Positions 8,987 through 57,697 of a DNA stretch of 64,000 nt are shown piece by piece. The notes beneath the pieces were generated by a model. That model saw only the letters and a program-made list of their open reading frames with translations, had not been told where the DNA came from and searched no databases. Origin of the DNA: Ruania alba (lineage in GTDB: Bacteria; Actinomycetota; Actinomycetes; Actinomycetales; Beutenbergiaceae); NCBI RefSeq assembly GCF_900105765.1, contig NZ_FNTX01000001.1:1832387-1896386 (forward strand), read 5' to 3'. Made by a program: the position numbers and the translations under genes. The stretch's first letter is position 1. Every line of letters starts with the position of its first letter.

Positions 8987-9781
8987 TCACCTGGCGGCGA
9001 GGCCACGTGGGGTCAGTAGGTCCTCGGCGATCCAGCCGAGCCAGTCGGCCATGAGGGCGAGAGTGACGCTCAGGACGGCGCCGACGAACGTGATCGACAC
9101 CCGGGAGACGTCGATGCCGGTGAGCAGGACACCGCCCAGTCCCCCGGCGTTGACGAAGACAGCGATGACTCCATAGGAGACGATCAAAGTCAGGGCTGTG
9201 CGGGCACCAGCCGCGATGACCGGTACAGCCAGCGGCAGTTCGACCCGCAGCAGCACGGTCAGCGGTCCCATACCCATTCCTCGCGCGGCTTCGAGGGTGG
9301 AACGTTCGATGGCGAGCAGCCCGGCCACGGTGTTCGTCAGCAGCACCAGCACCGCTCCTACGACGAGACCAGCGACGGCGATCTTGAAGCCGAGACCAAA
9401 GATGATCGCCAGGACGATGAGCAAACCGATCTTCGGTACAGCCTGCCCGAGGTTGCCCAGGGCGGTGACAACCGGGATGAGCCACCGCCCATAACGGCGG
9501 GTCACGACGACGCCGATCGGCACGGCCAGAACCAGCACGATGGCGAACGAGACCAGGCTCAGACGCACATGCTCGAGCAGAGCGGTGGAGAGGTTGTCTG
9601 CGGTGAGGATGCGTGCCTCGATGGAGTCCAGCTCGCGTGCCGAGATCCACCACCAGGTCGCTGCACACAGTGCGGCAAGGAGGACGGGGCGCACCGCGTA
9701 GGCAGTCCAACCGCGCGCCAGAATGGTTGGTCGCGCAGTCGTGCCCCGGTCCGCACCGCGGTGCTCGGTGTCGACGCTCAT
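8987..9781 (-). CDS. Betaine-type ABC importer, permease 2
   Basis: A 264-residue inner-membrane permease of the ProW/OpuCB type (MetI-like fold). It has about six hydrophobic segments and the cytoplasmic EAA loop LEAARGMGMGPLTVLLRVELPLAVPVI, which docks on the ATPase. ATG 9781 overlaps the ATPase stop by four bases (ATGA), showing translational coupling. It differs from the other permease in having a longer N-terminal arm, as in importers with two distinct permeases (OpuC or YehW/YehY type). Confidence 0.9.
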   Translation of the reverse strand: MSVDTEHRGADRGTTARPTILARGWTAYAVRPVLLAALCAATWWWISARELDSIEARILTADNLSTALLEHVRLSLVSFAIVLVLAVPIGVVVTRRYGRWLIPVVTALGNLGQAVPKIGLLIVLAIIFGLGFKIAVAGLVVGAVLVLLTNTVAGLLAIERSTLEAARGMGMGPLTVLLRVELPLAVPVIAAGARTALTLIVSYGVIAVFVNAGGLGGVLLTGIDVSRVSITFVGAVLSVTLALMADWLGWIAEDLLTPRGLAAR

Positions 9782-10785
9782 CGCGCCTCACCGGGATCCA
9801 GCTCGGCGTCCCAGCCCGCGTTCCGCCGGTCGATCGCTGTGAGCAGCGTGGGCACGGTCAGCGCGCCGAGGGCTCGTCCATCACCGCCGACGACCGCGAG
9901 GGCGTGGCCGGGAGCGGTGAGCAGGCGGTCCAAGGCTGCGTGCAGGGTCGCCTGCGGGGCGATGGTCTCCCATGCGGCTGCGTCAGCTGGTACGGGCTCC
10001 AGATCAAGCTCGGCGACCTGACTCAGACTTAGTCCACGGATCTGCGCACCTGCCCCGACGAACTGCTCGACGAATGCGTTGGCAGGTGAGGCGAGCAGCC
10101 GTCCCGGCCCGTCGAGTTGAGCAATGTGCGCGCCGTCCTGCAGCACGGCGATCCGATCGCCGATCTTGACCGCCTCATCGATGTCGTGCGTGACGAAGAC
10201 AATCGTCTTGCGCACCTCCGACTGAATCTGCAGGAGCTCGTCCTGCAGACCCGCCCGGGCGATCGGATCCACGGCGCCGAACGGTTCATCCATGAGCAGA
10301 ACCGGCGGGTCGGCGGCCAACGCGCGTGCCACTCCGACCCGTTGCTGCTGGCCACCGGAGAGCTGCTGCGGGTACTTCTGACGGTAGAGCGCCGGCTCCA
10401 GGCCGATCAGCTCGAGCAGCTCGTCGGTGCGCGCCGCCGTGCGCTTCTTGTCCCAGCCCAACAACGAGGGCACGATCCCGATGTTTCCGGCCACCGTCAT
10501 GTGCGGGAAGAGCCCGCCCTGCTGGATGACGTAGCCGATCCGTCGGCGCAGGCTCGTCGCATCGATGTGGGTGACGTCCTCGCCGCCGACGAAGATTCGG
10601 CCAGACGTCGGCTCGATGATGCGGTTGATCATCTTGAGGGTCGTGGTCTTGCCGCACCCGGAAGGTCCGACGAGCACGACGATCTCGCCTTCCGCGACCT
10701 CCATGGAGATTCCGTCCACGGCCGGGTGCTGCTGCCCTGGATAGGTCTTGGTCAACTCGGCCAAGCGGATCATCGGTTCAGCCAC
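9778..10785 (-). CDS. Betaine-type ABC importer ATPase with C-terminal CBS-like region
   Basis: A 335-residue ATPase with Walker A GPSGCGKTT, Q-loop region IQQGGLFPHMTV, signature LSGGQQQR, Walker B VLLMDEPFGAVD and switch His in VFVTHD. This is the OpuCA/ProV/GbuA subfamily. After about residue 245 there is a CBS-domain-like tail (TLHAALDRLLTAPGHALAVVG), a module that senses ionic strength or nucleotides in some relatives. GTG 10785 has GGAGG six bases upstream. It overlaps the preceding permease by 8 bases and the next by 4. Confidence 0.92.
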   Translation of the reverse strand: MAEPMIRLAELTKTYPGQQHPAVDGISMEVAEGEIVVLVGPSGCGKTTTLKMINRIIEPTSGRIFVGGEDVTHIDATSLRRRIGYVIQQGGLFPHMTVAGNIGIVPSLLGWDKKRTAARTDELLELIGLEPALYRQKYPQQLSGGQQQRVGVARALAADPPVLLMDEPFGAVDPIARAGLQDELLQIQSEVRKTIVFVTHDIDEAVKIGDRIAVLQDGAHIAQLDGPGRLLASPANAFVEQFVGAGAQIRGLSLSQVAELDLEPVPADAAAWETIAPQATLHAALDRLLTAPGHALAVVGGDGRALGALTVPTLLTAIDRRNAGWDAELDPGEAR

Positions 10786-13718: not shown

Positions 13719-14711
13719 CTACGCGAAGATGAAGCCGTGCTCGGACCGGTAGTCGGCGAGGAGCGTATCGACCACCCGCGCCGTGCGGATGGCACTCGTT
13801 CCGGTACTGGGCGAGACTCCCACACCCGTGAGCTCGTCAACGACCGCCTGGATCAGCGGCTGCTGCACCGTGGCCGGGTACGGCGCCTCGATCTCGCGCA
13901 CCCCGGAACCGGTCCGCAGCCGTAACGGTTCCTGGCCGAAACTGGAAAACGCCAGGGACCCTTCAGTGCCGATGATCTCCACCAGGTCACGGTCCTCGCC
14001 GGCCGCGTAGCACCACAGTCCCGTGCCCACGACGGCGGAGCCCACCTGGAAGGTCCCGCTCACCGTGTCTTCGGCCTGGGAGGTGCCGGAGATGTTCAGG
14101 GCGTGCCCGTGCACCTGGGTGATCGGTCCGAGTAGGTGGTCGAGCAGGTCGAGCGTGTGCGAGGCAAGATCGACGAAGAGCCCACCTCCGGAGATTTCCG
14201 GGCGCAGTCGCCAGGGCACCTGGTCGCCCGCGGCCGGCGCCGGACGGAGGTTCTCCACGCGGAAGGCATGCACCCGGCCGATGGCACCGCCGTCGAGGAG
14301 CTCCTGCACGGTGGCGAAGCGCGACATCGACCGCCGGTAGTACGCCACGAACAGCGGCAGCTCGGCCCGCTCAGCGGCGGCGAGCATCTCCTCGCACTCA
14401 CTCGTAGTGCGCGCCATCGGCTTCTCCAGATAGACCGGTTTGCCGGCCTCGAGCGCGCGAACCGTGTAGTCACGGTGCGAGTCCGGCGGTGTGGCGACGT
14501 AGACCGCGTCCACCTCGGGATCGTTCAGCAACGCCTCGGCGTCGTCATACCAGCGTGGCACGCCGTGGCGCCGGGCGTAGTCGGCGGCCTTCGCGCCGTC
14601 CCGGCGCATCACGGCCACCAGCTCGGACCGTTCGGCGTGGCGGAAACCGGGCCCGCTCTTGGTCTCGGTGACATCTCCGACGCCGATGATCCCCCACCGC
14701 ACAGTGTCCAT
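13719..14711 (-). CDS. Gfo/Idh/MocA-family NAD(P)-dependent oxidoreductase
   Basis: A 330-residue dehydrogenase with an N-terminal Rossmann fold (WGIIGVGDVTE) and a conserved catalytic EKPMART motif near residue 100. The C-terminal substrate-binding domain carries GGGLFVDLASHTLDLLDHLLG, whose His is the usual catalytic base. The family oxidises sugars, inositols or glycosides at ring hydroxyls. ATG 14711 has TACGCT exactly six bases upstream and no Shine-Dalgarno sequence, so it looks leaderless. It is divergent from the DUF4862-like gene and convergent with the IclR gene. It sits beside the sulfatase/mannosidase locus and may process sugars from it, but no operon link is visible. Confidence 0.9.
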   Translation of the reverse strand: MDTVRWGIIGVGDVTETKSGPGFRHAERSELVAVMRRDGAKAADYARRHGVPRWYDDAEALLNDPEVDAVYVATPPDSHRDYTVRALEAGKPVYLEKPMARTTSECEEMLAAAERAELPLFVAYYRRSMSRFATVQELLDGGAIGRVHAFRVENLRPAPAAGDQVPWRLRPEISGGGLFVDLASHTLDLLDHLLGPITQVHGHALNISGTSQAEDTVSGTFQVGSAVVGTGLWCYAAGEDRDLVEIIGTEGSLAFSSFGQEPLRLRTGSGVREIEAPYPATVQQPLIQAVVDELTGVGVSPSTGTSAIRTARVVDTLLADYRSEHGFIFA

Positions 14712-14792
14712 GCGTCGAGCGTAGCCGCGAGGGCGAAGGCGGCCGGGTGGATAGCCTGAACCGAGTCTCTCCCTCCACAGATCGGTAGGCCG

Positions 14793-15752
14793 ATGCCCAC
14801 ACCGTCCCCGCCTGGCGTCTTCGTCGGTGCATACGCCTCCTCCCCCACGGCACGGTCCTGGGACCCACAGCTGGAACGGGCGTACCTGGACCGGATCGCC
14901 GAGATCCCCGGCGTGCGAGGTCTGGAGGTGCCGTGGATCACGTCGCTGCACCCCCACGAGGAGAACTGGTACGCCGAGCACCTCCCCGCCGGCTGGGAGA
15001 TGGTGATCACCCAGATCGGTGGGGTGATGCACCGGCTCACCGACGATCCCGACTACGGGTTGGCCTCGGCGGACCGGGGCGGGCGGGCTCGCGCCGTGGC
15101 CGATGTGGCGACCATTCGTGACGACGTCGCGCGCCTGCACGATGCGCTCGGCCGTCAGGTGGTCACCGGGGTCGAGTTGCACAGCGCCCCGGCCTCCACG
15201 GCCGCCCGCGGCACCACCGCTGCCCTGGCCGAGTCGCTCCGGGATATCGCGGCCTGGGACTGGGGCGGTGCGGAGCCGCTCATCGAGCACTGCGACGAAC
15301 GTAGCCGCGGCAGACCGACCGCCAAGGGTTTCCTCTCCGTGGCGGAGGAACTTCAAGCGATCGCCGACGCGGCCACAGGCACCGGCATGATGGTGAACTG
15401 GGGCCGTTCAGCCATCGAGCTCGGCGATCCGGATCTGGTGCCTGAGCAGGTCCGGTCGATCCGCGAGGCCGGTGTGCTGGCCGGCGTGGTCTTCTCCGGA
15501 GTGGCTGCCGTGGCCACCGACTACGGGGCGCCCTGGGCCGACGCGCACCCCTCGTTCGCCCCGGACCGCACCGGCACGGGAGCCGGAGGCTCGCTGCTCA
15601 CCGACGCCCGCGCTACCACCACTCTCACGGCGGCGGGCCCGCATGTGTGGTGCGGCCTCAAGGTCGGGTGCCGCCCGCAGGGCGCCCCGCTGGAGCACCG
15701 GGTGGCCCTGATCCGTAACGGCGTGGAACGGGTGCTCGCTGCCCGCGACTGA
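14793..15752 (+). CDS. DUF4862-like protein (probable TIM-barrel sugar-metabolism protein)
   Basis: A 319-residue soluble protein. FVGAYASSP at the start, LEVPWITSLHPHEENW, GVELHSAPA, WDWGGAEPLIEHCDE and GMMVNWGRSAIE resemble DUF4862 proteins, which look like xylose-isomerase/endonuclease-IV type barrels and often sit in carbohydrate clusters. The family name is from memory of these motifs and I am not certain of it. ATG 14793 follows GGTAGG with 4 bases spacing. TAGCCT at 14749-14754 is a possible -10. It is divergent from the Gfo/Idh gene and converges tightly on the sulfatase (15 bases between stops). No catalytic role can be assigned, although conserved His, Glu and Asp suggest a metal-dependent isomerase. 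Confidence 0.65.
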   Translation: MPTPSPPGVFVGAYASSPTARSWDPQLERAYLDRIAEIPGVRGLEVPWITSLHPHEENWYAEHLPAGWEMVITQIGGVMHRLTDDPDYGLASADRGGRARAVADVATIRDDVARLHDALGRQVVTGVELHSAPASTAARGTTAALAESLRDIAAWDWGGAEPLIEHCDERSRGRPTAKGFLSVAEELQAIADAATGTGMMVNWGRSAIELGDPDLVPEQVRSIREAGVLAGVVFSGVAAVATDYGAPWADAHPSFAPDRTGTGAGGSLLTDARATTTLTAAGPHVWCGLKVGCRPQGAPLEHRVALIRNGVERVLAARD

Positions 15753-15767
15753 GTCATGGCCGCACAG

Positions 15768-17096
15768 TCAACGAACAGGTGCCTCCGCCTCCACCCATGC
15801 GCGGTTCTTCGCCTGGAAGATGCTCAGCTCCTCGGTGAGTGCCGCGAGCTGCTCCCCTCGTTCAGCCGAGACGTCGGTGGTCTCTGCCGGGTCGGTCGTC
15901 ACGTCATAGAGCGCCTGCACCACGGCCGCCGGTGGGTCCATCCCCTCACGTGCCTCGTGCACGAGCTTGAGGTCGCCGCGCCGCACGGCCCACTGGCCCT
16001 CATAGGTCCAGTACACCGAACGATCGGGACCACCCGCACCCGGCGCACCGGCCGCCGTCAGGGCCTCCAGGAGGGAGACGCCATCGATCGACTCCGCCTC
16101 GGCGGGCGTTCCGTCCACGGCGTGCAGCACCGTGGGGAGCACGTCCATCATCATCCCGACGGACTCGTACTCGACGCCAGCAGGTAGCCGAGCGGGCCAG
16201 GAGATGATGCTGGGCTCGCGCACGCCGCCCTCGAAGACCGATCCCTTGGTGCCGCGCAGACCGCCGGCCCAGCCGCCGTCGTAGGAGATCTCCTCCCCGT
16301 CCAGCCAGTTCCGGCTCTCTGCGGAGGGGCCGTTGTCGGAGGAGAAGAACACCAGCGTGTTCTCAGCCAGTCCGTGCTCGGTCAGCGCCGCCAGGATCGT
16401 TCCGACGGCGTCATCCATCGCCGCCACCATCGCCGCCATCTCCTGGCGCCCCTCGGGCAGGTGGGCGAAGCGGTCCATGTACTCGGCCGGAGCGTGCATC
16501 GGGTAGTGCGGGGCGTTGAACGGGACGAAACAGAAGAACGGTTCGTCGGCGTGCCGGTCGATGAAGTCGGCGGCCCGGTCGCCGATCACCGTGGTGAGGT
16601 ACTCGCCGTTCAGCCAGACCTCCTCGTCGTCGTCCCACAAGTCGTGGATCGGGTTGTGGTCGCCCCAGTAGAAGATGTGCGAGTAGTAGTCCACGCATCC
16701 GGCGCGGATGCCGAAGGTCTCCTCGAAGCCGTACTGGCTCGGGCTGTACTCGTCCGAGGCTCCCAAGTGCCACTTGCCGAACAGTCCGGTGCGATACCCC
16801 CGACGGCGCAGCTCGCTTGCGAGGGTGTCCTGCTGGGGCAGTCCGGGGGTGCGTCGCGTCCCGCCCAGAATCGCCTCCACCCCTGCGTGCGCCGGGTACT
16901 TCCCGGTGAGCAGGGAAGCCCGCGACGGTGAACACACCGGAGAGTTGGAGTACCACTGCGACAGCTTCACGCCGGAGGCGCACAGGCCGTCCAGGGCCGG
17001 GGTCTCGAACTCGGCGCCGAAACAGCCGAGGTCACCCCAGCCCAGGTCGTCGGCATAGAGGACGACGATGTTCGGGCGGGCGGTCGAGTCGGTCAT
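15768..17096 (-). CDS. Formylglycine-dependent sulfatase (type I, arylsulfatase-like)
   Basis: A 442-residue sulfatase. The N-terminal metal site is NIVVLYADDLGWGDLG. The modification motif CSPSRASLLTGK has Cys55 followed by P-S-R, so Cys55 must be converted to formylglycine by a maturase (not in this window). Further active-site elements are LFGKWHLG (Lys, His), HYPMHAP and FFSSDNGPSAE (metal Asp-Asn). No signal peptide is visible, so it appears cytoplasmic and should act on imported sulfated glycans. It lies 54 bases after the MalG-type permease and in the same minus-strand operon as the importer, whose regulator and partner enzyme are ROK and a GH38 mannosidase. The likely substrate is a sulfated sugar or short glycan; the position of the sulfate is unknown. 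Confidence 0.92.
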   Translation of the reverse strand: MTDSTARPNIVVLYADDLGWGDLGCFGAEFETPALDGLCASGVKLSQWYSNSPVCSPSRASLLTGKYPAHAGVEAILGGTRRTPGLPQQDTLASELRRRGYRTGLFGKWHLGASDEYSPSQYGFEETFGIRAGCVDYYSHIFYWGDHNPIHDLWDDDEEVWLNGEYLTTVIGDRAADFIDRHADEPFFCFVPFNAPHYPMHAPAEYMDRFAHLPEGRQEMAAMVAAMDDAVGTILAALTEHGLAENTLVFFSSDNGPSAESRNWLDGEEISYDGGWAGGLRGTKGSVFEGGVREPSIISWPARLPAGVEYESVGMMMDVLPTVLHAVDGTPAEAESIDGVSLLEALTAAGAPGAGGPDRSVYWTYEGQWAVRRGDLKLVHEAREGMDPPAAVVQALYDVTTDPAETTDVSAERGEQLAALTEELSIFQAKNRAWVEAEAPVR

Positions 17097-17150
17097 GGTT
17101 CCTCGCAGAGCACGGTCGGATTGGTCGGTGGAGAAGAGGCGGACGATCCC

Positions 17151-18050
17151 TCAGCCCTTGACGGCGCCCGCGGCCACACCCGCCACCAGGCGCCGCTGCA
17201 GGAACGAGAACAGAATGATCGTCGGTGCGGCAGCGATGGTGGACGCCGCCATCACCACGCCCCAGTCGGTGCCGTACTCACCGAACAGACCCGCCAAGCC
17301 GACCTGCGCGGTCTTCAACGAATCGTCGGTGAGGAACACCTGGGCGAAGAGGAACTCCTCCCACATCGCGATGAACGCCGTCACCGAGACGGTCACGATC
17401 CCCGGCCAGACCAACGGAGCGATCACTCGCGCGAGCACGGTCAAGGTCGATGCGCCGTCCATGCGCGCCGCCTCGTCCAGGGTGCGCGGTACGCCGTTGA
17501 AGAATCCGCTCATCAGGAGCACCGCGAGTGGCAGGGTCATCGCGACGTACACCAGCACGATGCCCGGGTAGCTGTTGAGCAGGCCGAGCTGTGAGAAGAA
17601 CAGATACACCGGTGTGATCAGTACGACGAACGGAAGCAGCTGGGTAGCCACGAGCAACAGGAACATCGCTCCCCTGCCCCGGAAGGAGTAGCGCGAGAGG
17701 GCAAAGCCGGCCAGGCTGGCGACGATCACGGTGCAGAACGTGCCGACGAGGCACACCAGGAGCGAGTTCAGGATGTACTGCTCGAAGTTCGTGGCCTCGA
17801 ACAGCCGGGCGAAGGCATCCAGGCTGATGTTGTCCAGGAGCGTCGACCAGCTCACGCCGGCGGCGATGTCCTGCACCGGGCGGAGGGCGCTGTAGACCAT
17901 CCACAGCACCGGGAAGATGATGGCGAGCAGCACCACGGCGAGCGGCACGAGCAGCACGAGGTCGCTCGCGCGGCGCGCTGAGCTGTCCCGGCGTCGCGCG
18001 CGAAGCCGGCTGGGCGCGGGTGCAGCCTCCCGCTGGGTCACGGCGCTCAT
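17151..18050 (-). CDS. ABC sugar importer permease (MalG type)
   Basis: A 299-residue carbohydrate permease (CUT1) with six membrane spans and the EAA loop LDEAARMDGASTLTVLARVIAPLVWPG near the C-terminal third. ATG 18050 overlaps the stop of the MalF-type gene by one base (TGATG), so translation is coupled. The frame can also start at GTG 18053. With the next two genes it forms an importer without its own ATPase. Confidence 0.92.
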   Translation of the reverse strand: MSAVTQREAAPAPSRLRARRRDSSARRASDLVLLVPLAVVLLAIIFPVLWMVYSALRPVQDIAAGVSWSTLLDNISLDAFARLFEATNFEQYILNSLLVCLVGTFCTVIVASLAGFALSRYSFRGRGAMFLLLVATQLLPFVVLITPVYLFFSQLGLLNSYPGIVLVYVAMTLPLAVLLMSGFFNGVPRTLDEAARMDGASTLTVLARVIAPLVWPGIVTVSVTAFIAMWEEFLFAQVFLTDDSLKTAQVGLAGLFGEYGTDWGVVMAASTIAAAPTIILFSFLQRRLVAGVAAGAVKG

Positions 18051-18946
18051 CACTGGTCCTCCGTCCGGGTCGCGCGCATGTAGAGGATGGCGAACACGGC
18101 CATGATCATCGTCATCACCAGACCGATGGCTGCACCGGCGCCCAGCTTGTTGGCGAAGAACGCCATCGAGTAGAGCTCGGTCGCGAGCACCGCCGTATAG
18201 GTGCCTGGTCCGCCACCGGTGGTGAGCCAGACGTAGACGAAGTTGTTGAAGGTCTGGATCACGGTCACCAGCACCACCACTGTCAGCACGGGCCGTAGAT
18301 TCGGCACCGTGATGCTGCGGAACGCGCGGATCCGGCCGGCGCCGTCGAGCGATGCAGCCTCGTACTGCTCGTCGGGGATCGACTGCAGACCGGCAAGGAG
18401 CACCATCACCACGAAGGGCAGCTCACGCCACACGATGATCGCCACGATGCTCCACCACACGGTGCTCGTCTGGGCGAGGAACGCCACTCCGGAGTCGGTG
18501 AGCCCGGATCCGACGAGCACCTGGTTGAGCACACCGGAGCTACCGTCCAGGAGCCAGCGCCACGAGGCGATCGCGACCACCTGCGGCACCATCCACGGGA
18601 TGAGCACGAGTGTGCGCGCCAGCCCGCGGACCTTCCACCGGCGCAGCACCGGCGAGTGCAGCGCGACGGCGAGGGCGAGTCCGAACACGATCCGCAGCAG
18701 CACGGTCAGGGCGGTGAGCCAGAAGACCGTGTTCCGGGCGATCGCCCAGAACTCCGGGTTGCCGAAGACGTACTCGAAGTTGCCCAGCCCGGTCCACTCG
18801 CCGTCGCCCGGGCCTTGGAACGGGGAGATCTCCTGCAGCGACAGGATGACGTTGTAGATCGAGGGGAACAGGAACAGCAGGGCGACGATGACGAGCGCCG
18901 GAGCGCTCAACAGGTACGCCTGCAGGGAGGTCCGGCGCGTCGTCAT
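18050..18946 (-). CDS. ABC sugar importer permease (MalF type)
   Basis: A 298-residue CUT1 permease with six spans: an N-terminal LLSAPALVIVALLFLFPSIYNVI segment, a periplasmic loop with WTGLGNFEYVF, and the EAA loop YEAASLDGAGRIRAFRSITVPNLRPV. ATG 18946 is eight bases after GAGG. GTG 18952 is an alternative and would be nearly on top of that GAGG. It follows the binding-protein gene by 10 bases. Partner of the MalG-type permease. Confidence 0.92.
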   Translation of the reverse strand: MTTRRTSLQAYLLSAPALVIVALLFLFPSIYNVILSLQEISPFQGPGDGEWTGLGNFEYVFGNPEFWAIARNTVFWLTALTVLLRIVFGLALAVALHSPVLRRWKVRGLARTLVLIPWMVPQVVAIASWRWLLDGSSGVLNQVLVGSGLTDSGVAFLAQTSTVWWSIVAIIVWRELPFVVMVLLAGLQSIPDEQYEAASLDGAGRIRAFRSITVPNLRPVLTVVVLVTVIQTFNNFVYVWLTTGGGPGTYTAVLATELYSMAFFANKLGAGAAIGLVMTMIMAVFAILYMRATRTEDQ

Positions 18947-18956
18947 CGTCACCGCC

Positions 18957-20231
18957 TCAGCCCTGCAGCTCGCGCTCGATGGCGTCGATGATCGCCTGTG
19001 CTGCCGTGGCGGAGTCCGCCTGGCCCGAGTACACCGCCGAGAACTGCTGGTTCACCAGCTCCTGCAGGGACGCGATCGTGATCGGGGCACCGATGTAGCG
19101 CACGAACGGCACCGAGTGCGGAAGCTGGTCGACGAATCCCTGCTCGGCCGGATCGACGTCGAGCTGGGTCAGCGTGCTCGCCGATGCCGGGTACTGGTCG
19201 TAGGTCTCGAACGTCTCGGCACTGAGCAGGTACTGCACGACCTGCCACGCCTCGTCCGGGTGCTCGCTGTTGGCGTTGATGCCCAGCGCGCGTCCACCCA
19301 GGTGGGTCGACCCGTCGTCCAGCCCTCCCGGCATGGGAGCGGTGAGAAGCTCGGCGTCGACCTGCTCCTGGACCGCCCGGAAGGCGGCGGGCGGCATGAA
19401 GGTCATCGCGCAGGTGCCATCACCGAGGCCCGCCGCGATGGACGGATCGGCGTAGTCGGTGATCGCCTGCATCGACGTCGGGGTGATGCCCTCGGTGAAG
19501 TAGGAGTTGAAGTAGTCGATGGCGCCGGCCAGCTGCTCCTGGGTGGCACCGACGGACCAGTCGCCGCCGTTGTTCTCGATCAGTTGGAAGTCGTTGTTCC
19601 ACATGTAGTAATTGATCGCGAACCACTGCGCCGCCTGCTGTGGGGCACCGGCTGCGAAGCAGAAGCCGCTCACCTCACCACCCGAGGCGTCGGTGATCTG
19701 CCCCGCCACGTCGAGCAGCTCGGGCCAGTCGCTCGGAGTCTCAGTCACGCCTGCATCGGCGAGCACGTCCTCCCGGTAGACCATGGCCATGGTGTCGGCC
19801 GTCCAGGGGATGGCCCATGTCGTCTCGTCCAGGACGGTCATCTCGGTGGCGAGCAGGCTGTCGGCATCGTCCAGCGGCTGCTCGGCCATCAGGTCGTCGA
19901 GCGGCAGCAGGATGTTCGGCTCCGCCAGGAACGCCACATCCGCCAGGGCAAGGTGAGCGATGTCCGGTCCGGACCCGGAGTTGGCCTCACGGGCGAGCTG
20001 CTGGGGGTTGTTGGGGGTGAGCGTCTCGAGCTCGACCTGGATGTCCGGGTTGTCCGCGTTCCAGGCGTCGACTGCTTCCACCAGTCCCTGGATCTGATCG
20101 GCAGGATCGAACTGCCGGAAGGTGAGGCGGACAACTCCGTCGTCCGGCTCCGCCCCTTCCCCACCACATGCGGCGAGGGTCGCTGCAAGAGCGCCGACTG
20201 CTGCGGCGGCGATGAACCTGGATGTCTTCAC
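18957..20231 (-). CDS. ABC sugar importer substrate-binding lipoprotein
   Basis: A 424-residue extracellular solute-binding protein (family 1, CUT1). The signal peptide has the lipobox LAAC-G. The mature protein has LTFRQFDPADQ, AWNADNPDIQVEL, and an aromatic-rich ligand region around YYMWNNDFQL, typical of oligosaccharide binders. GTG 20231 follows GGAGAGG. The open frame runs further upstream but into the regulator promoter. It is first in the operon binding protein, MalF, MalG, sulfatase, and is transcribed from a promoter whose consensus -35 TTGACA is at 20288-20293. Ligand unknown; context suggests a mannose-containing, possibly sulfated glycan. Confidence 0.92.
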   Translation of the reverse strand: MKTSRFIAAAAVGALAATLAACGGEGAEPDDGVVRLTFRQFDPADQIQGLVEAVDAWNADNPDIQVELETLTPNNPQQLAREANSGSGPDIAHLALADVAFLAEPNILLPLDDLMAEQPLDDADSLLATEMTVLDETTWAIPWTADTMAMVYREDVLADAGVTETPSDWPELLDVAGQITDASGGEVSGFCFAAGAPQQAAQWFAINYYMWNNDFQLIENNGGDWSVGATQEQLAGAIDYFNSYFTEGITPTSMQAITDYADPSIAAGLGDGTCAMTFMPPAAFRAVQEQVDAELLTAPMPGGLDDGSTHLGGRALGINANSEHPDEAWQVVQYLLSAETFETYDQYPASASTLTQLDVDPAEQGFVDQLPHSVPFVRYIGAPITIASLQELVNQQFSAVYSGQADSATAAQAIIDAIERELQG

Positions 20232-20263
20232 GTGACTGCCTCTCCGTTGATGCGAGTGGGCCA

Positions 20264-20315
20264 CAGTTAAATCCACCATTTTGAGTTTGTCAACGCGGCA
20301 TGGGCTGCGTAGCAT
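20264..20315. promoter_or_regulatory. Face-to-face promoters of the importer operon and the ROK gene
   Basis: On the minus strand TTGACA (20288-20293) precedes TTAACT/TTTAAC (20265-20271) by 16-17 bases and would drive the importer operon. On the plus strand TTGTCA (20287-20292) precedes TAGCAT (20310-20315) by exactly 17 bases and would drive the ROK gene, with TAGCAT six bases before its ATG. The two -35 boxes are superimposed. GTTTGTCAAC (20285-20294) is also shared in inverse form with the mannosidase promoter and may be the ROK operator. Confidence 0.6.
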
Positions 20316-20321
20316 CGGCGC

Positions 20322-21587
20322 ATGCCGAGCCGGACACCGACGCCCTCCGAGGACCCAGCTGCGCCCGCAGCACCGGGCCGGCGCGGCACGAACCTGCCCC
20401 GAGTGGCCGACTACAACAAGATGCTGGTGCTGGACCTGATCCGCCGGTCGGCGGGGATCAGCAGGGTCGAGCTGGTGCAGCACACCGGTCTGACGGCGCA
20501 GACCATGTCCAATATCTGCCGCCGTCTCAGCGACGCGGGCCTGATCAAGGAGTCCGGCCGGATCTACGCCGGCGCCGGCGCCCCCCGCACGATCTTCGAG
20601 GTGGAACCCGGAGGCCTGTACGCGCTCGGTCTGCACATCGACCCGGCGTGGCTGACGTCGGTGGTGCTCAACCTCGCCGGCGAGGTGGTCGGCACCGTCC
20701 GTATCCCGACGCCGGCCTCACCGGACCCGACCTCGGTGCTCGACGCGATCGAGGCAATGATCCGCTCCCTCATCGCCGACTCCGGCATCCCGGCCGACCG
20801 CCTGGCCGGACTGGGCGTGGGAACACCCGGTCCGATCGATGTGCGCACCGGCGCCGTGGTCGGCGCCCCCTACCTGGTGGGGTGGGAACGCGTGCCGCTG
20901 CGGACCGACCTGGAACGCCGGCTCGACCTTCCCGTCACGATCGACAAGGACTCGACGGCGGTCGCCGTCGGAGAGATGTGGAACGCCGAGGACGGCCCGC
21001 GCAACATGGCCTTCGTCTACATCGGCACCGGAATCGCAGCCGGCCTGGTGCTCGACGGCGAGGTGATGCGAGGCTCCAGCGGCAACATCGGCCACATGAA
21101 CGCCGATCCGAACGGCCCGATCTGCTTCTGCGGCGGCCGTGGCTGCCTGGAGAGCACGATCCTGCCGCGCAACCTTGTCGGCGAGGGCACGGTCCGTGGC
21201 GTTCTGCCCGCGGTCGACATCGGAGACGCTCGCGCCCTGGGCGCTGCGCTCACCGAACTGTGCCACCTCGCTGATTCCGGCCAGGCCGAGGCGGTGGAGA
21301 TCGTCGAGCGCGCCGCACGTGGCCTGGGCCGGATCACCGGTCAGCTCGCCAACCTGCTCGACCTGGACACGATCGTCTTCGGCGGACCCCAGTGGGAGCC
21401 GTTCGCGCCCACGATCCTGCGGATCGTTCCGGACGTCGTGACACGGATGTTCATCGGCCGTGCGGTGCACCCGGTCACCGTCCGCGGGACGTCGATCGGC
21501 AACCAGGTGGGCGCCGTGGGTGCAGCGTCGCTGGCGATGTGGTCCAGCACCTTCAATGCACCGACACAGCTGTTCCTCCCGCACTGA
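20322..21587 (+). CDS. ROK-family transcriptional regulator (NagC/XylR type)
   Basis: A 421-residue regulator. An N-terminal winged HTH (LDLIRRSAGISRVELVQHTGLTAQTMSNICRRL, about residues 30-65) is joined to a ROK sugar-kinase-like domain. That domain has GVGTPGPID, KDSTAVAVGEMW, YIGTGIAAGLVLDG and GHMNADPNGPICFCGGRGCLE, the last being the His/Cys zinc motif (CxCGxxGCxE). ROK regulators bind sugars or sugar phosphates and usually repress transport and hydrolase genes. It is divergent from the importer/sulfatase operon and upstream of the mannosidase, so it probably controls both. ATG 20322 has TAGCAT six bases upstream and no ribosome site, suggesting a leaderless mRNA. Confidence 0.93.
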   Translation: MPSRTPTPSEDPAAPAAPGRRGTNLPRVADYNKMLVLDLIRRSAGISRVELVQHTGLTAQTMSNICRRLSDAGLIKESGRIYAGAGAPRTIFEVEPGGLYALGLHIDPAWLTSVVLNLAGEVVGTVRIPTPASPDPTSVLDAIEAMIRSLIADSGIPADRLAGLGVGTPGPIDVRTGAVVGAPYLVGWERVPLRTDLERRLDLPVTIDKDSTAVAVGEMWNAEDGPRNMAFVYIGTGIAAGLVLDGEVMRGSSGNIGHMNADPNGPICFCGGRGCLESTILPRNLVGEGTVRGVLPAVDIGDARALGAALTELCHLADSGQAEAVEIVERAARGLGRITGQLANLLDLDTIVFGGPQWEPFAPTILRIVPDVVTRMFIGRAVHPVTVRGTSIGNQVGAVGAASLAMWSSTFNAPTQLFLPH

Positions 21588-21680
21588 GACCCGACGCCAC
21601 CGACCGCACGGGCACGTGGCCCACACCGCCTCCGTGCGCCCTAGCAGCCCGCCATGACACCCTTCTTGTAATTCCATATG

Positions 21681-21691
21681 GTTGACTAACT
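21681..21691 (+). promoter_or_regulatory. GTTGACTAACT motif upstream of the mannosidase
   Basis: GTTGACTAACT differs at one of 11 bases from GTTGACAAACT on the minus strand at 20284-20294 in the importer promoter. Both have the form GTT-N4-AAC and both contain a -35-like TTGAC. It may be a shared ROK operator or simply a -35 element. Confidence 0.4.
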
Positions 21692-21742
21692 AGCGACCGC
21701 AGAACCGACGCCGCGCCGATGCGGTCTGAAGGGACGAGACAG

Positions 21743-24700
21743 ATGACCGAGATCCGCCAGCAGGATGCTTCCACCCAGATCGTCCGGCGCCTGGACCGCG
21801 CGGTCCGCGAGGTGATCCGTCCCGCGCGGATCCGCTATCGCAGTCCGCTCACGGTCTCCGCTCGACGGGTCGGGGGCGAGCCCGTCTCGTTCGCCGACGG
21901 CACCCGCGGCGACCTCACCCCTCTCGCCGTCGGCGACTCGTGGGGCCGTGCCTGGGACACCGTGTGGATGCACGTCAGCGGCGCCGTCCCCGGTGAGTGG
22001 GACGCACGCACCGCAGTCGCGGCCGAGCTCGAGATCGACCTGGGCTTCACCACGGCGCAGTCCGGATTCCAGGCCGAGGGGCTGGTGTACACCACGGACG
22101 GATCAGTGGTCCGCGCACTCTCCCCACTGAATCACCGCGTGCCGCTCCAGGTGGGTCCGGGCGCGGCCATCGAGTACTGGGTCGAGGCCGCCGCCAACCC
22201 CACCTTGAACAACGCCCACGGCACGAACCTGATCCCGCTCGCCCACCTGGGCAGCTGGGAGAGCGCCGGCGAGGAGGAGATCTACCGATTCGCCGGTGCG
22301 CACGTCGTGGTGCCCGAGGCCGAGGTCGTCGCCCTCGCCCATGACGTGGACCTGCTGCGCGGGATCGCCACCAACGACGGCACCGACGTGCGCCGGCGCG
22401 ACCTGATCCTGGCCGCGATCGAGCGGATGCTCGCCGTACTCGACCCGACCGACGTTCCCGGAACCGCTGCAGCAGCCCGCGAACGGCTCACCGCAGTGCT
22501 GACCACCCCGGCGCATGCCAGTGCGATGACGCTGACCGCCGTCGGACATGCGCACATCGACTCGGCGTGGCTGTGGCCGCTGCGGGAGACGATCCGCAAG
22601 TGCGCACGCACCTTCTCCAACGTGGTCACCCTGATGGAGGACAACCCGGACTTCGTGTTCGCCTGCTCCTCCGCCCAGCAGTTCGCGTGGATGAAGGAGC
22701 ACTACCCGGATCTGTACACGCGGATCTCCGACGCCGTCGCGCGGGGCCAGTTCGTGCCCGTGGGCGGGATGTGGGTGGAGTCCGACACGAACATGCCCAG
22801 CGGTGAGTCCCTGGTGCGCCAGTTCGTGGCCGGTCAGGGCTTCTTCATGCGCGAGTTCGGCATCGAGTGCCCGGAGGTGTGGCTGCCGGACAGCTTCGGC
22901 TACACCGGCGCGTTCCCCCAGATCGCCCGCCTGGCCGGAGCACACTGGTTCTTCGGGCAGAAGATGTCCTGGAACCGCAGCAACCGGATGCCGCACCACA
23001 CTTTCACCTGGGAGGGCATCGACGGCTCCCGGATCCTCACCCACTTCACCCCGGTGGACACCTACAACTCCGACCTCTCCCCCGTCGAGCTCGGCTACGC
23101 GCACGGCAACTTCGCCGACCACGCCGATTTCTCCGGCGGCATCGTGCCGTTCGGATACGGCGACGGCGGTGGTGGGCCCACCCGAGAGATGCTCGAGGCC
23201 GGCCGCCGTGCCGCGGACGTGGAAGGCCTTCCGCGGGTACGGTTCGGTGCGCCGTCGGAGTTCTTCGCCGAGGCCGAGGCCGAGGCGCAGGACGCCGACC
23301 CGGCCACCTGGACCGGGGAGATGTACCTGGAGCTGCACCGCGGCACCTACTCCTCACAGGCCCGCACCAAGTACGGCAACCGGCGCGCCGAGGCGCTGCT
23401 GCGCGAGGCCGAGCTGTGGGCCGCCACCGCCAGCGTGCGCGCCGGCGCGGCCTATCCGCAGGAGGAGCTGGCCCGGATCTGGGAGCGCACGCTGCTGCTG
23501 CAGTTCCACGACATCCTGCCCGGCAGCTCGATCTCCTGGGTGCACGCCGACGCCGAACGGATGCACGGCGAGGACCGTGACGCGCTCGAGCAGATCATCG
23601 CCGATGCCTTGGACATCCTCGCCGGTACCGGCGAGCAGACGCTGACCGTGAACGGCGCACCGTTCCCGCGCGCCGGGATCCCTCCGCTCGGTGGGGTGGC
23701 CGAACCGGCGCCGCCGAACCAGCAGGTGAGCGTGGAGAGGTCTGGCGACCGGCACGTGCTGCGCACCTCCCACCTGGAGCTGCAGGTCGCCGCCGACGGC
23801 ACCTTCGTCGAGCTCCTCGACCACGCGTCCGGGCGCTCGTTGTTCAGCCCGGACGCTCCAGGGAACACCCTGGACCTGCACCAGGACATCCCCACGGACT
23901 GGGACGCCTGGGACATCGACGCGCACTACCGTGAGCTGACCGTGCCCGCTGACGGCACCGCCGAGGTACGGATCGCCGACGACGGCACACCGGCGGTGCA
24001 CATCACCCGCACCGTGGGTGCGTCCCGGGTGGAGCAGGTGGTCACCCTGGCGCCGGACCGACCGGTCGTGGACATCGTCACCGAGGTGGACTGGCACGAA
24101 CGCCAGCGCCTGCTCAAGCTGGCCCACCCGTTCCGGATCGACGCGCGCACCTCCGCCGCCGAGACCCAGTTCGGTCATGTAGTGCGCCCCACGCACGAGA
24201 ACACCTCGTGGGACGAGGCGCGGTTCGAGATCGTCGCCCATCGCTGGCTGCACGTCAGCGACGGTGTCGTCGGTGCGGCGGTGGTGAACGACTCCACCTA
24301 CGGCCACGACGTCGCCCGCCTCCCCGCGCAGGAGTACCTCACCCAGGTCCGGCAGACGCTGCTGCGAGGGCCGCTGTATCCCGATCCGGAGAGCGATCAG
24401 GGCCGGCACACCTTCCGCACTCGCCTGGTGCTGACCCCGGACGTGTCCGGCGCCGTGGACGAGGCCTACGACATGGATACCCCGTTGCGGACCGCCCGCG
24501 GTGACGGCCGCGAGATCGCGCCAGTGGCGCAGGCGTTCGGCGACGGCGTGGTGCTGCACACGGTGAAGCTGGCCGAGGACGGCACCGGCGACCTGATCGT
24601 GCGCGTGCACGAAGCCTATGGACGCCCCACCCGGGCCCGGATCGTGGTGAACGGCGCGCAGATCCGGCAGGTCGACCTGCTCGAACGAGTGCTCGATTCC

Positions 24701-24781
24701 GACGCCGGGCCGGTCGCAGACCAGCTCGAGCTCGACCTGCACGCCTTCCAGATCGTCACGGTCCGCGCCCGGGCACACTGA
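21743..24781 (+). CDS. GH38 alpha-mannosidase
   Basis: A 1,012-residue retaining alpha-mannosidase with the standard three-part layout: a catalytic (beta/alpha)7 domain, a three-helix middle domain and large C-terminal beta domains. Zinc and catalytic residues are visible: HAHIDSAWLWPLRE (HxD), WVESDTNMPSGESLVRQ, the nucleophile Asp in VWLPDSFGYTGAFPQI, and the later His in LQFHDILPGSS. No signal peptide is present, so it acts in the cytoplasm on imported mannosides. I chose ATG 21743, eight or so bases after GAAGGGACGAG, over ATG 21719, which has no ribosome site. It follows the ROK gene by 155 bases with its own probable promoter. With the sulfatase and importer it suggests use of alpha-mannose glycans. 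Confidence 0.95.
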   Translation: MTEIRQQDASTQIVRRLDRAVREVIRPARIRYRSPLTVSARRVGGEPVSFADGTRGDLTPLAVGDSWGRAWDTVWMHVSGAVPGEWDARTAVAAELEIDLGFTTAQSGFQAEGLVYTTDGSVVRALSPLNHRVPLQVGPGAAIEYWVEAAANPTLNNAHGTNLIPLAHLGSWESAGEEEIYRFAGAHVVVPEAEVVALAHDVDLLRGIATNDGTDVRRRDLILAAIERMLAVLDPTDVPGTAAAARERLTAVLTTPAHASAMTLTAVGHAHIDSAWLWPLRETIRKCARTFSNVVTLMEDNPDFVFACSSAQQFAWMKEHYPDLYTRISDAVARGQFVPVGGMWVESDTNMPSGESLVRQFVAGQGFFMREFGIECPEVWLPDSFGYTGAFPQIARLAGAHWFFGQKMSWNRSNRMPHHTFTWEGIDGSRILTHFTPVDTYNSDLSPVELGYAHGNFADHADFSGGIVPFGYGDGGGGPTREMLEAGRRAADVEGLPRVRFGAPSEFFAEAEAEAQDADPATWTGEMYLELHRGTYSSQARTKYGNRRAEALLREAELWAATASVRAGAAYPQEELARIWERTLLLQFHDILPGSSISWVHADAERMHGEDRDALEQIIADALDILAGTGEQTLTVNGAPFPRAGIPPLGGVAEPAPPNQQVSVERSGDRHVLRTSHLELQVAADGTFVELLDHASGRSLFSPDAPGNTLDLHQDIPTDWDAWDIDAHYRELTVPADGTAEVRIADDGTPAVHITRTVGASRVEQVVTLAPDRPVVDIVTEVDWHERQRLLKLAHPFRIDARTSAAETQFGHVVRPTHENTSWDEARFEIVAHRWLHVSDGVVGAAVVNDSTYGHDVARLPAQEYLTQVRQTLLRGPLYPDPESDQGRHTFRTRLVLTPDVSGAVDEAYDMDTPLRTARGDGREIAPVAQAFGDGVVLHTVKLAEDGTGDLIVRVHEAYGRPTRARIVVNGAQIRQVDLLERVLDSDAGPVADQLELDLHAFQIVTVRARAH

Positions 24782-55883: not shown

Positions 55884-56843
55884 ATGAGCTCACTCACCGA
55901 GGAGAGGCGGCGCGCACCAGCGCCCGCGCTCCGACCATCCTCACCACCACAGTCACGCAGACGGCGAGCAGTCGCGCCCTATCTTTTCCTCAGCCCCTGG
56001 TTGATCGGCCTACTCGTATTCGTGATGGGCCCCATGGCGGCCTCGCTGTACCTATCCATGACCGACTACAACTTCCTCCAGGACCCGAACTTCATCGGAC
56101 TGGACAACTTCGTGCGAATGTTCACGAGCGATCCGCGCTACCTCAGCTCGGTCGTGGTCACCGCCACCTACGTGCTCGTCTCGGTCCCGCTACAGTTGAT
56201 CTTCGCCTTGGCACTGGCGATGCTGCTGGACCGAGCGATCGCCGGAATCGCCATCTACCGCGCGGTCTTCTACCTGCCCTCGCTCATCGGAACCAGTGTC
56301 GCGGTCGCCGTGCTGTGGCGGACCGTATTCGGTAGCGATGGGCTCGTGAACGCCGCACTCGGTGCCATCGGCATCGATACCACCCACAGTTGGGTCGGCA
56401 ACCCGGATACCGCCTTGATGACAATCATCGCGCTGAACGTGTGGACCTTCGGCTCGCCCATGATCATCTTTCTCGCGGGCCTGCGTCAGATCCCACGCTC
56501 GTACTACGAAGCGGCCGAAGTCGATGGTGCCGGGCATGTTCGACGGTTTCTCAGCATCACGATCCCTCTCTTGACACCGATTGTGTTCTTCAACTTCATC
56601 CTGCAGACGATCTACGCCTTTCAGGCTTTCGTTCCCGCCTACATCGTCAGTAACGGTCAAGGCGGCCCCGCGGATTCGACCTTATTCTACACGCTGTACC
56701 TCTACCAGCAGGGATTCGCCAACTTCGACATGGGATATGCCTCCGCGATGGCCTGGGTGCTGCTGGTGGTCATCGCCGCAATCACCGGAATCAACTTCCT
56801 ACTTTCCCGATACTGGGTCTTCTATGCGGATGGTGACCGATGA
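55884..56843 (+). CDS. ABC sugar importer permease (MalF type), first gene of the sugar operon
   Basis: A 319-residue CUT1 permease. After a basic N-terminus (SRRRRAVA) come six spans, beginning APYLFLSPWLIGLLVFVMGPMAASL, and the EAA loop YYEAAEVDGAGHVRRFLSITIPLLTP. ATG 55884 follows CAGGAG by about 9 bases. The longer frame from 55737 covers promoter sequence and is rejected. It overlaps the next permease by ATGA. A TAACGT at 55729-55734 may be its -10. Confidence 0.92.
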   Translation: MSSLTEERRRAPAPALRPSSPPQSRRRRAVAPYLFLSPWLIGLLVFVMGPMAASLYLSMTDYNFLQDPNFIGLDNFVRMFTSDPRYLSSVVVTATYVLVSVPLQLIFALALAMLLDRAIAGIAIYRAVFYLPSLIGTSVAVAVLWRTVFGSDGLVNAALGAIGIDTTHSWVGNPDTALMTIIALNVWTFGSPMIIFLAGLRQIPRSYYEAAEVDGAGHVRRFLSITIPLLTPIVFFNFILQTIYAFQAFVPAYIVSNGQGGPADSTLFYTLYLYQQGFANFDMGYASAMAWVLLVVIAAITGINFLLSRYWVFYADGDR

Positions 56844-57697
56844 GCGCCGAGGCCGCAGTCACTACCCGCACCAAGCCGCCGATGCGTCGAGTCGCGATGC
56901 ACCTGCTCTTGATCGCGCTCGCCATCGGGATGCTCTACCCGCTGCTGTGGATGCTGGTCAGCTCCCTGCGCGAGAACGAGAATATCTTCACCAGCGCCGG
57001 ACTGGCGCTGACCGACGCGACACTCGACAATTACGTTCGCGGCTGGGATGCCCAGCAGAACTCCTTCGCGATCTATTTCCGGAACAGCTTCATCGTCACC
57101 GGCTCGGTGATTCTGGGGAACCTGATCGCCTGTTCCCTGACCGCGTTCGCGTTCGCACGGATGAGGTTCCGGCTCAAGGCGCTCTTCATGGGTGTCATGC
57201 TCGTCACCATCATGCTTCCCGAGCACGTCACGATTGTTCCCCAGTACATTCTGTTCTCGGAGCTCGGCTGGCTGAACACCTTCCTTCCTCTGACGGTTCC
57301 GAAATTCTTCGCGACCGACCCGTTCTTCATCTTCCTGATGGTGCAGTTCATGCGCGGCATTCCCCGTGACATCGATGAGGCAGCCTCCATCGACGGGTGT
57401 GGGCCGTTCCAGATCTACTGGCGGATCATGCTGCCCTTGGTGGTTCCGGCCCTGGCCACCACCGCGATTTTCTCCTTCATCTGGACCTGGAACGACTTCT
57501 TCCGTCCACTGGTCTTCCTGACCGACAACGATCTGTTCACCGTGCCGCTGGCGATCCGACTCTTCGTCGACCTCGGCGGCACTGACTGGGGAGCCCTGTT
57601 CGCCATGTCCGTTTTGTCCCTCGTCCCGATATTCGTCTTCTTCGTGTTCGGGCAGCGGTACCTGATCCGTGGCATCGCCACGACGGGGCTCAAGTGA
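56840..57697 (+). CDS. ABC sugar importer permease (MalG type)
   Basis: A 285-residue CUT1 permease with six spans and the EAA loop IDEAASIDGCGPFQIYWRIMLPLVVPALA. ATG 56840 overlaps the previous stop. Its own stop overlaps the start of the first Gfo/Idh gene (GTGA), so transport and enzyme are translated together. Confidence 0.92.
   Translation: MSAEAAVTTRTKPPMRRVAMHLLLIALAIGMLYPLLWMLVSSLRENENIFTSAGLALTDATLDNYVRGWDAQQNSFAIYFRNSFIVTGSVILGNLIACSLTAFAFARMRFRLKALFMGVMLVTIMLPEHVTIVPQYILFSELGWLNTFLPLTVPKFFATDPFFIFLMVQFMRGIPRDIDEAASIDGCGPFQIYWRIMLPLVVPALATTAIFSFIWTWNDFFRPLVFLTDNDLFTVPLAIRLFVDLGGTDWGALFAMSVLSLVPIFVFFVFGQRYLIRGIATTGLK

Follow-up and report, generated by a model that had tools for sequence, protein, structure and literature searches.

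Sulfated glycans are a large, slowly used pool of carbon, and the best studied degraders remove sulfate outside the cytoplasm. A stretch of 64,000 nucleotides from Ruania alba (contig NZ_FNTX01000001.1, positions 1,832,387 to 1,896,386; hereafter the window) raises the question of whether a sulfated sugar can be taken up first and freed of its sulfate within the cell. Positions 13719-24781 of the window encode an S1 formylglycine sulfatase, an ATP-binding cassette (ABC) importer, a ROK-family regulator, and a GH38 alpha-mannosidase, a combination that a preliminary description of this DNA had read as serving the uptake and internal desulfation of a mannose-rich sulfated glycan. Open reading frames (ORFs) and Pfam matches confirmed this gene set, with its domains, at about the same coordinates. 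Import combined with desulfation inside the cell is very probable, and we favor, with less assurance, the view that the genes form a cassette for breaking down a sulfated oligosaccharide containing alpha-mannose.

The importer and sulfatase operon and its divergent regulator

Four closely packed genes on the minus strand run from a lipoprotein solute-binding protein (18957..20231; SBP_bac_1 domain, lipobox, GTG start) through a MalF-type permease (18050..18952) and a MalG-type permease (17151..18053; both BPD_transp_1) to a sulfatase of 442 amino acids (15768..17096). The permease genes overlap by at most 4 bases, and the remaining gaps come to 4-10 and 54 bases according to which start is taken; the tight spacing indicates a single operon, in line with the earlier claim that the sulfatase is co-transcribed with a sugar importer. 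A lipoprotein binding protein with two permeases is the composition of a CUT1-type sugar ABC importer, and the solved relatives nearest to the binding protein are mixed sugar binders (best 57 bits). The ATPase that such an importer would own was not found among the ORFs and Pfam matches of 13719-24781, and the nearest ATPase gene (9778-10785) is, as judged by eye, glycine-betaine-type in appearance. Several importers of the CUT1 kind commonly share one ATPase.

The sulfatase carries the motif N-S-P-V-C-S-P-S-R (C55-x-P-S-R) and matches PF00884 above the cut-off (190 bits), as is expected of an S1 family member. In an alignment of 59 sequences, D16, D17, R59, K108, H110, H197, D254, and K284 are invariant, and C55 and N255 are kept in at least 90%; for the conserved residues other than C55 and H197, we assume the roles that they have in S1 active sites. 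An export signal is absent at the N-terminus of both the sulfatase and the GH38 enzyme. The genome (here, G-numbers denote genomes, with G000 being that of the window, and L-numbers denote loci examined) encodes an FGE maturase (G000:C1:593014), which scores 259 bits against PF03781 and 400 bits against the solved FGEs 2q17/6muj, and a second match to the FGE family is partial (41 bits). Desulfation inside the cell is thus well supported by a signal-less sulfatase in an importer operon, by the FGE in the genome, and by the conservation of the arrangement described below.

Diverging from the importer on the plus strand is a regulator (20322..21587) with the architecture of a ROK repressor, that is, a helix-turn-helix (winged-helix matches) together with a ROK domain (PF00480, 155 bits). 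A total of 11 intergenic regions between ROK and binding-protein genes, representing three families, share one element when aligned: TTGAC-N4-TCAA is present in 10 and TCAAATTG in 9 of them, the window version is TCAAAATG, and Actinoallomurus has TCAAATTG without TTGAC. In the window, this conserved, operator-like element overlaps a promoter-like TTGACA-N17-TTAACT (together 20265..20293, minus strand) before the binding-protein gene. TTGACNNNNTCAAAWTGG has a single exact site in the genome; allowing up to 2 mismatches adds one site, versus five in a backward control, and a weight matrix run over 700 kb of the genome's own DNA scored no other site strongly (12.9 for the runner-up versus 33.7). 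The single site and the overlap with the promoter suggest that ROK probably acts locally, repressing the importer/sulfatase operon. The element could serve as a ready reporter with which to identify the inducer.

The GH38 gene (21719..24781, plus strand) follows ROK in the same direction after a gap of 131 bases. This gap contains a 20-base box (21670..21689, plus strand), found by alignment of congeners and identical at 16 of 20 positions in four of them, which may belong to a separate GH38 promoter. Since GH38 is preceded by a different conserved box, its joint control with the operon is no more than a possibility.

The cassette in other genomes and its link to GH38

An orthologue of the sulfatase was found at E 1e-90 in 4 of 24 genomes of the family, all of them from the genus of the window; the three congeners carry the cassette together with GH38. 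A search at E 1e-75 of 396 genomes sampled across the order returned 14 positives, namely those 4 and 10 from one genus of another family (hereafter the second family), in which 12 of 38 genomes carry the sulfatase. Among the 10 second-family loci examined at 20 kb, the window order of ROK, binding protein, both permeases, and sulfatase recurs in 6, a permease scrap is left in 1, and the sulfatase stands without this importer in 3. In two further positives, read for about 1.5 kb per side, the permeases adjoin in one, which brings the sulfatase-bearing genomes with adjoining permeases to 7 of 12. One sulfatase-only locus of the second family (L072; match from residue 32) has a GH38 gene about 8 kb off.

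A wider scan covered genome contigs with the best 80 of 565 sulfatase relatives. Among the matches listed, Actinoallomurus iriomotensis (67-68% identity) has binding protein, permeases, sulfatase, and GH38 in one direction with ROK divergent, and Actinopolymorpha alba (69%) has a different ABC importer 2.5 kb away. On a plasmid of Halomontanus rarus, a sulfatase of 46% identity is accompanied by three alpha-fucosidases, a GH20, and a GH38 6 kb on. No GH38 was found within 8-9 kb per side in Actinopolymorpha, a Paenibacillus cellulositrophicus plasmid, Gracilibacillus, or the other Halomontanus plasmid; in the Gracilibacillus locus (L075), a 703-residue neighbour considered as a GH38 candidate proved to be a DUF5054 protein that does not match PF01074 at E 0.001. 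Conservation in other genomes indicates that the arrangement is beyond chance, and the divergence of ROK from the importer, as given in the preliminary description, recurs in Actinoallomurus. A separate observation concerns H. rarus plasmid unnamed2 (L190), where eight annotated sulfatase genes lie within about 12 kb with a beta-galactosidase adjoining.

The window GH38 has the N-terminal, middle, and both C-terminal domains of its family (PF01074, 301 bits; PF09261, 96; PF07748, 170; PF17677, 38), in agreement with the earlier assignment of a cytoplasmic-type mannosidase downstream of ROK, and its type is presumably that named MAN2C1. The closest solved relatives are PDB 7uf entries (best 692 bits), with Ams1 next; we take 7ufr-7ufu to be Bifidobacterium longum enzymes, and we know of no sulfatase in the B. 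longum GH38 operon. According to a review, that operon, for high-mannose N-glycans, comprises three GH38 and a GH125 (PMC10154615).

Window-type GH38 (82-100% identity) is present in exactly 4 of 8 congeneric genomes, which are those with the cassette, and the other four have GH38 paralogues of only 49-54% (4/4 versus 0/4; one-sided Fisher p 0.014). In a GH38 tree, where long branches were flagged and deep forks are open, the four window-type enzymes occupy a separate long branch, and the Actinoallomurus GH38 is closer to another GH38 of the window genome (61%) than to the window enzyme. This tree does not support the Actinoallomurus GH38 as an orthologue of the window GH38, and because two GH38 types lie beside sulfatase units, GH38 seems to have joined the unit at least twice. 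The co-inheritance of a sulfatase with a mannosidase offers a testable path to a new sulfatase specificity.

Substrate, rival explanations, and known systems

In the pathway that we propose, the lipoprotein would capture the sulfated sugar outside the cell and the two permeases would import it, powered by an ATPase encoded elsewhere. The FGE-activated cytoplasmic sulfatase would then take sulfate off the chain end and GH38 would afterwards trim alpha-mannose, while ROK would repress the importer/sulfatase operon at the promoter-overlapping element until released by the arrival of the sugar. Importing sulfated sugars first would leave little to be shared with competitors and would demand importers that accept sulfate.

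The identity of that sugar was approached through an AlphaFold2 model of the sulfatase (mean pLDDT 93.6), whose best match in the PDB is PsS1_19B (TM 0.83, 34-35% identity). This enzyme of a marine Pseudoalteromonas (PDB 6prm/6psm) is an exo-4S kappa-carrageenan sulfatase that removes the 4-sulfate of galactose at the chain end (PMC6923384). In the alignment, C55 of the window sulfatase corresponds to C77 and H197 to the catalytic acid H233 (PMC6923384), whereas Y455 and Y458 of PsS1_19B lie beyond the aligned end; the position of C77 served to infer the offset of 4 between the two numberings. Further solved relatives are an S1_16 carrageenan sulfatase, a Pedobacter sulfatase named GalNAc-6-sulfatase, S1_19 carrageenan sulfatases, and human GalNAc-4-sulfatase; S1_19 and S1_16 entries are at similar distance among the nearest, and the score to S1_19 is 245 bits versus 89 bits to the S1_11 entry 5g2v. 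At 34-35% identity to PsS1_19B, the substrate cannot be read from the sequence.

A mannosidic substrate is supported by the linkage of GH38 in the genus of the window, in Actinoallomurus, and on a haloarchaeal plasmid. We consider it likely that GH38 acts in the same pathway as the sulfatase and importer, and lean, somewhat less firmly, towards mannose as a constituent of the substrate. Several observations weigh against this interpretation. No GH38 lies beside the cassette in any of the 10 second-family loci (20 kb each), which rules out GH38 as a constant part of the cassette, and across the second-family genus GH38 follows the sulfatase only weakly (11/12 versus 15/26; one-sided p 0.038). 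The window GH38 has closer relatives than the Actinoallomurus enzyme, the ROK element was not found before GH38 by weight matrix or congener alignment, and the solved proteins nearest to the sulfatase carry galactose or GalNAc sulfatase names. The absence of GH38 beside the second-family cassette leaves the mannose-rich glycan of the preliminary description likely but not proven. Because the nearest solved relatives are galactose or GalNAc sulfatases, sulfated mannose as the direct substrate of the sulfatase is unproven, and a sulfate on mannose itself is conceivable yet rather doubtful.

These same relatives raise the alternative that the ROK/importer/sulfatase core serves for a sulfated sugar of the galactose or GalNAc type, with GH38 being a hitch-hiker or serving another part of a mixed glycan. 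The chain-end activity of PsS1_19B on galactose 4-sulfate, the carrageenan and GalNAc sulfatases next to it, the second-family cassettes without adjoining GH38, and the haloarchaeal relative among fucosidases and GH20, suggestive of a mixed glycan, are all in keeping with it. However, 34-35% identity is weak evidence of substrate, and GH38 is linked in three of eight lineages. The chance of this is put roughly at 0.0005, an estimate for which the lineages and the distance were selected post hoc and in which two of the lineages are plasmids of one organism. We regard this alternative as unlikely, though deserving of serious attention. Some bacterial sulfatases serve the supply of sulfur, and in one second-family genome another sulfatase adjoins an NMT1-type binding protein (L067), a different type of locus; an import of sulfate esters chiefly for their sulfate is nonetheless only remotely likely here, given that the sugar-type binding protein, the ROK regulator, and GH38 indicate use of carbon.

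It could also be argued that the flanking DUF4862 protein (14793..15752, plus strand; Pfam match of 302 bits) and Gfo/Idh/MocA dehydrogenase (13719..14711, minus strand; start placed from congeners) process the sugar, for example by a 3-keto route, since both are next to the sulfatase in the window and in two congeners. Their flanking position is as first described; their membership in the pathway is very improbable. G020, a congener with no cassette, has its DNA ligase followed by a different binding protein, two permeases, a different ROK, and then DUF4862 and Gfo/Idh. In G018, GH38, ROK, binding protein, permeases, and sulfatase form a block between the ligase and a G020-type ABC/ROK/DUF4862 unit (identity to G020 of 85% for the binding protein, 92% and 91% for the permeases, 76% for ROK, and 60% for DUF4862), and that unit separates DUF4862 and Gfo/Idh from the sulfatase. 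The cassette-free site of G020 and the two-unit site of G018 speak strongly against the pair as pathway members, and this reading is already partly refuted; moreover, no DUF4862 or Gfo/Idh matches were found near the cassette in second-family loci or Actinoallomurus. In the window, G016, and G019, the importer and ROK of the G020-type unit are gone, and DUF4862 and Gfo/Idh are left as its remnant. The cassette-free G015, G017, and G021 are uninformative in this regard because their ligase is more distant (55-57%) and neither unit lies beside it in the stretch read. In the window, the right-hand neighbour resembles an ATP-dependent DNA ligase, as judged by eye, and the simplest history would be an insertion of the cassette beside the ligase followed by loss of the neighbouring importer. 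A solved relative of DUF4862 was not found at E 1. The second ABC/ROK/DUF4862 unit with divergent Gfo/Idh (L183, L062) occupies the same chromosomal site and is intact in G020 and G018, and permease genes at 56001-57697 of the window are related to the importer of this unit in G020 (157 and 106 bits).

Parts of the proposed strategy are known from other bacteria, among them Bifidobacterium breve, whose system presumably includes a ROK regulator and a cytoplasmic sulfatase. In calling the pathway unfamiliar in an organism of this kind, the preliminary description went too far, given two reports, on Arthrobacter SulA1 (PMC10972148) and on B. breve (PMC6045583). SulA1, from a marine Arthrobacter, is a signal-less sulfatase encoded beside a chondroitin lyase and is taken by its authors to be intracellular; it resembles the window case as an actinobacterial sulfatase without signal peptide next to a degradative gene, whereas it acts on GalNAc-4-sulfate (PMC10972148) and the window locus has GH38 and ROK. 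The text of that paper, in its available portion, never uses the term ABC transporter (PMC10972148). B. breve, likewise Gram-positive, uses GlcNAc-6-sulfate by means of adjoining transporter and sulfatase genes; however, its transporter is annotated as a glucose/fructose transport protein, the Fe-S oxidoreductase AtsB rather than an FGE adjoins, and there is no mannosidase among the gene rows examined (PMC6045583). Sulfatases are combined with an alpha-mannosidase, as in the window locus, in a polysaccharide utilization locus of Polaribacter (Bacteroidota) for the sulfated alpha-1,3-mannan of diatoms, but the enzymes there are secreted or periplasmic and belong to S1_51, S1_11, GH92, and GH195, with GH38 unmentioned in the available text (PMC13063451). 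The window locus, with GH38 and a signal-less sulfatase nearer to S1_19 than to S1_11, is not of that type.

Sulfatases across the genome

The pattern of sulfatases in the genome as a whole is more surprising than the window cassette. PF00884 has 57 matches in 55 frames, equivalent to about 53 sulfatase genes once one weak match and one split gene are dropped. At E 1e-10, G000 has 56 sulfatase matches versus 4-32 in seven congeners and 0-17 in 16 other genomes of the family. The count in G000 represents a strong expansion or gain inside one genus. At 70% identity the 55 frames form 54 groups, and at 40% they still form 33, so that the sulfatases are not recent duplicates.

Export was assessed with a crude hydrophobicity scan rather than SignalP. 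An upstream hydrophobicity of at least 1.9, a cut-off fixed after the sulfatase values and before the controls, was reached by none of the 55 sulfatase frames, by 17 of 30 binding proteins (thus missing 13), and by 28 of 37 homologous sulfatases from other phyla. At 1.2, a cut-off fixed after all values, the corresponding numbers were 2/55, 30/30, and 36/37; of the two sulfatase frames passing, one has its hydrophobic stretch upstream of the likely start and the other is the weak match. It should be noted that the other-phyla control comprises 37 of 80 listed loci, hand-picked, with Gram-positive ones left out.

A total of 45 of the 57 sulfatase matches lie within 7 kb of an SBP_bac_1 match, whereas 2000 circular shifts gave 16.6 on average and at most 33; this test counts matches rather than genes and assumed contigs of 2.220 and 2.611 Mb (true lengths 2.284 and 2.546 Mb). 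Grouped into clusters, 29 of 37 have an SBP_bac_1 match within 7 kb. Locus maps were drawn with a home-made gene caller, whose count of 57 sulfatase genes (a few of them overlapping fragments, 25 flagged with a permease in the same-strand run) was not relied on. Of the 44 large neighbours listed, a chosen subset of 20 was scanned. A PL8 lyase (L023:17668-20000, where L023 is G000:C2:28001-48000), with an N-terminus judged by eye to be twin-arginine-like, has three signal-less sulfatases and an ABC importer in its vicinity. This cluster fits a scheme in which a chondroitin-like glycan would be depolymerized outside, imported, and desulfated inside.

Single intracellular actinobacterial sulfatases are already known. 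Neither the window cassette nor a cytosolic sulfatome of such size was found described among the matches listed from the open-licence literature. We tentatively suggest, at somewhat less than even confidence, an import-first sulfatome of about 53 distinct sulfatases, apparently none of them exported, with one clear FGE, in which the window cassette would be a branch for sulfated alpha-mannosides with an undescribed S1 specificity. If true, it would be a Gram-positive counterpart to the systems in which Bacteroidota and Planctomycetota export their sulfatases.

Two further features of the G000 sulfatases were observed. One sulfatase appears to be split over two frames (G000:C1:2157484-2159471), because the gene is broken or because of an error in sequencing. 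Seven frames deviate from the usual C-x-P-S/A-R motif, of which five have C-x-P-T-R, one has C-T-P-Y-R, and one is a fragment.

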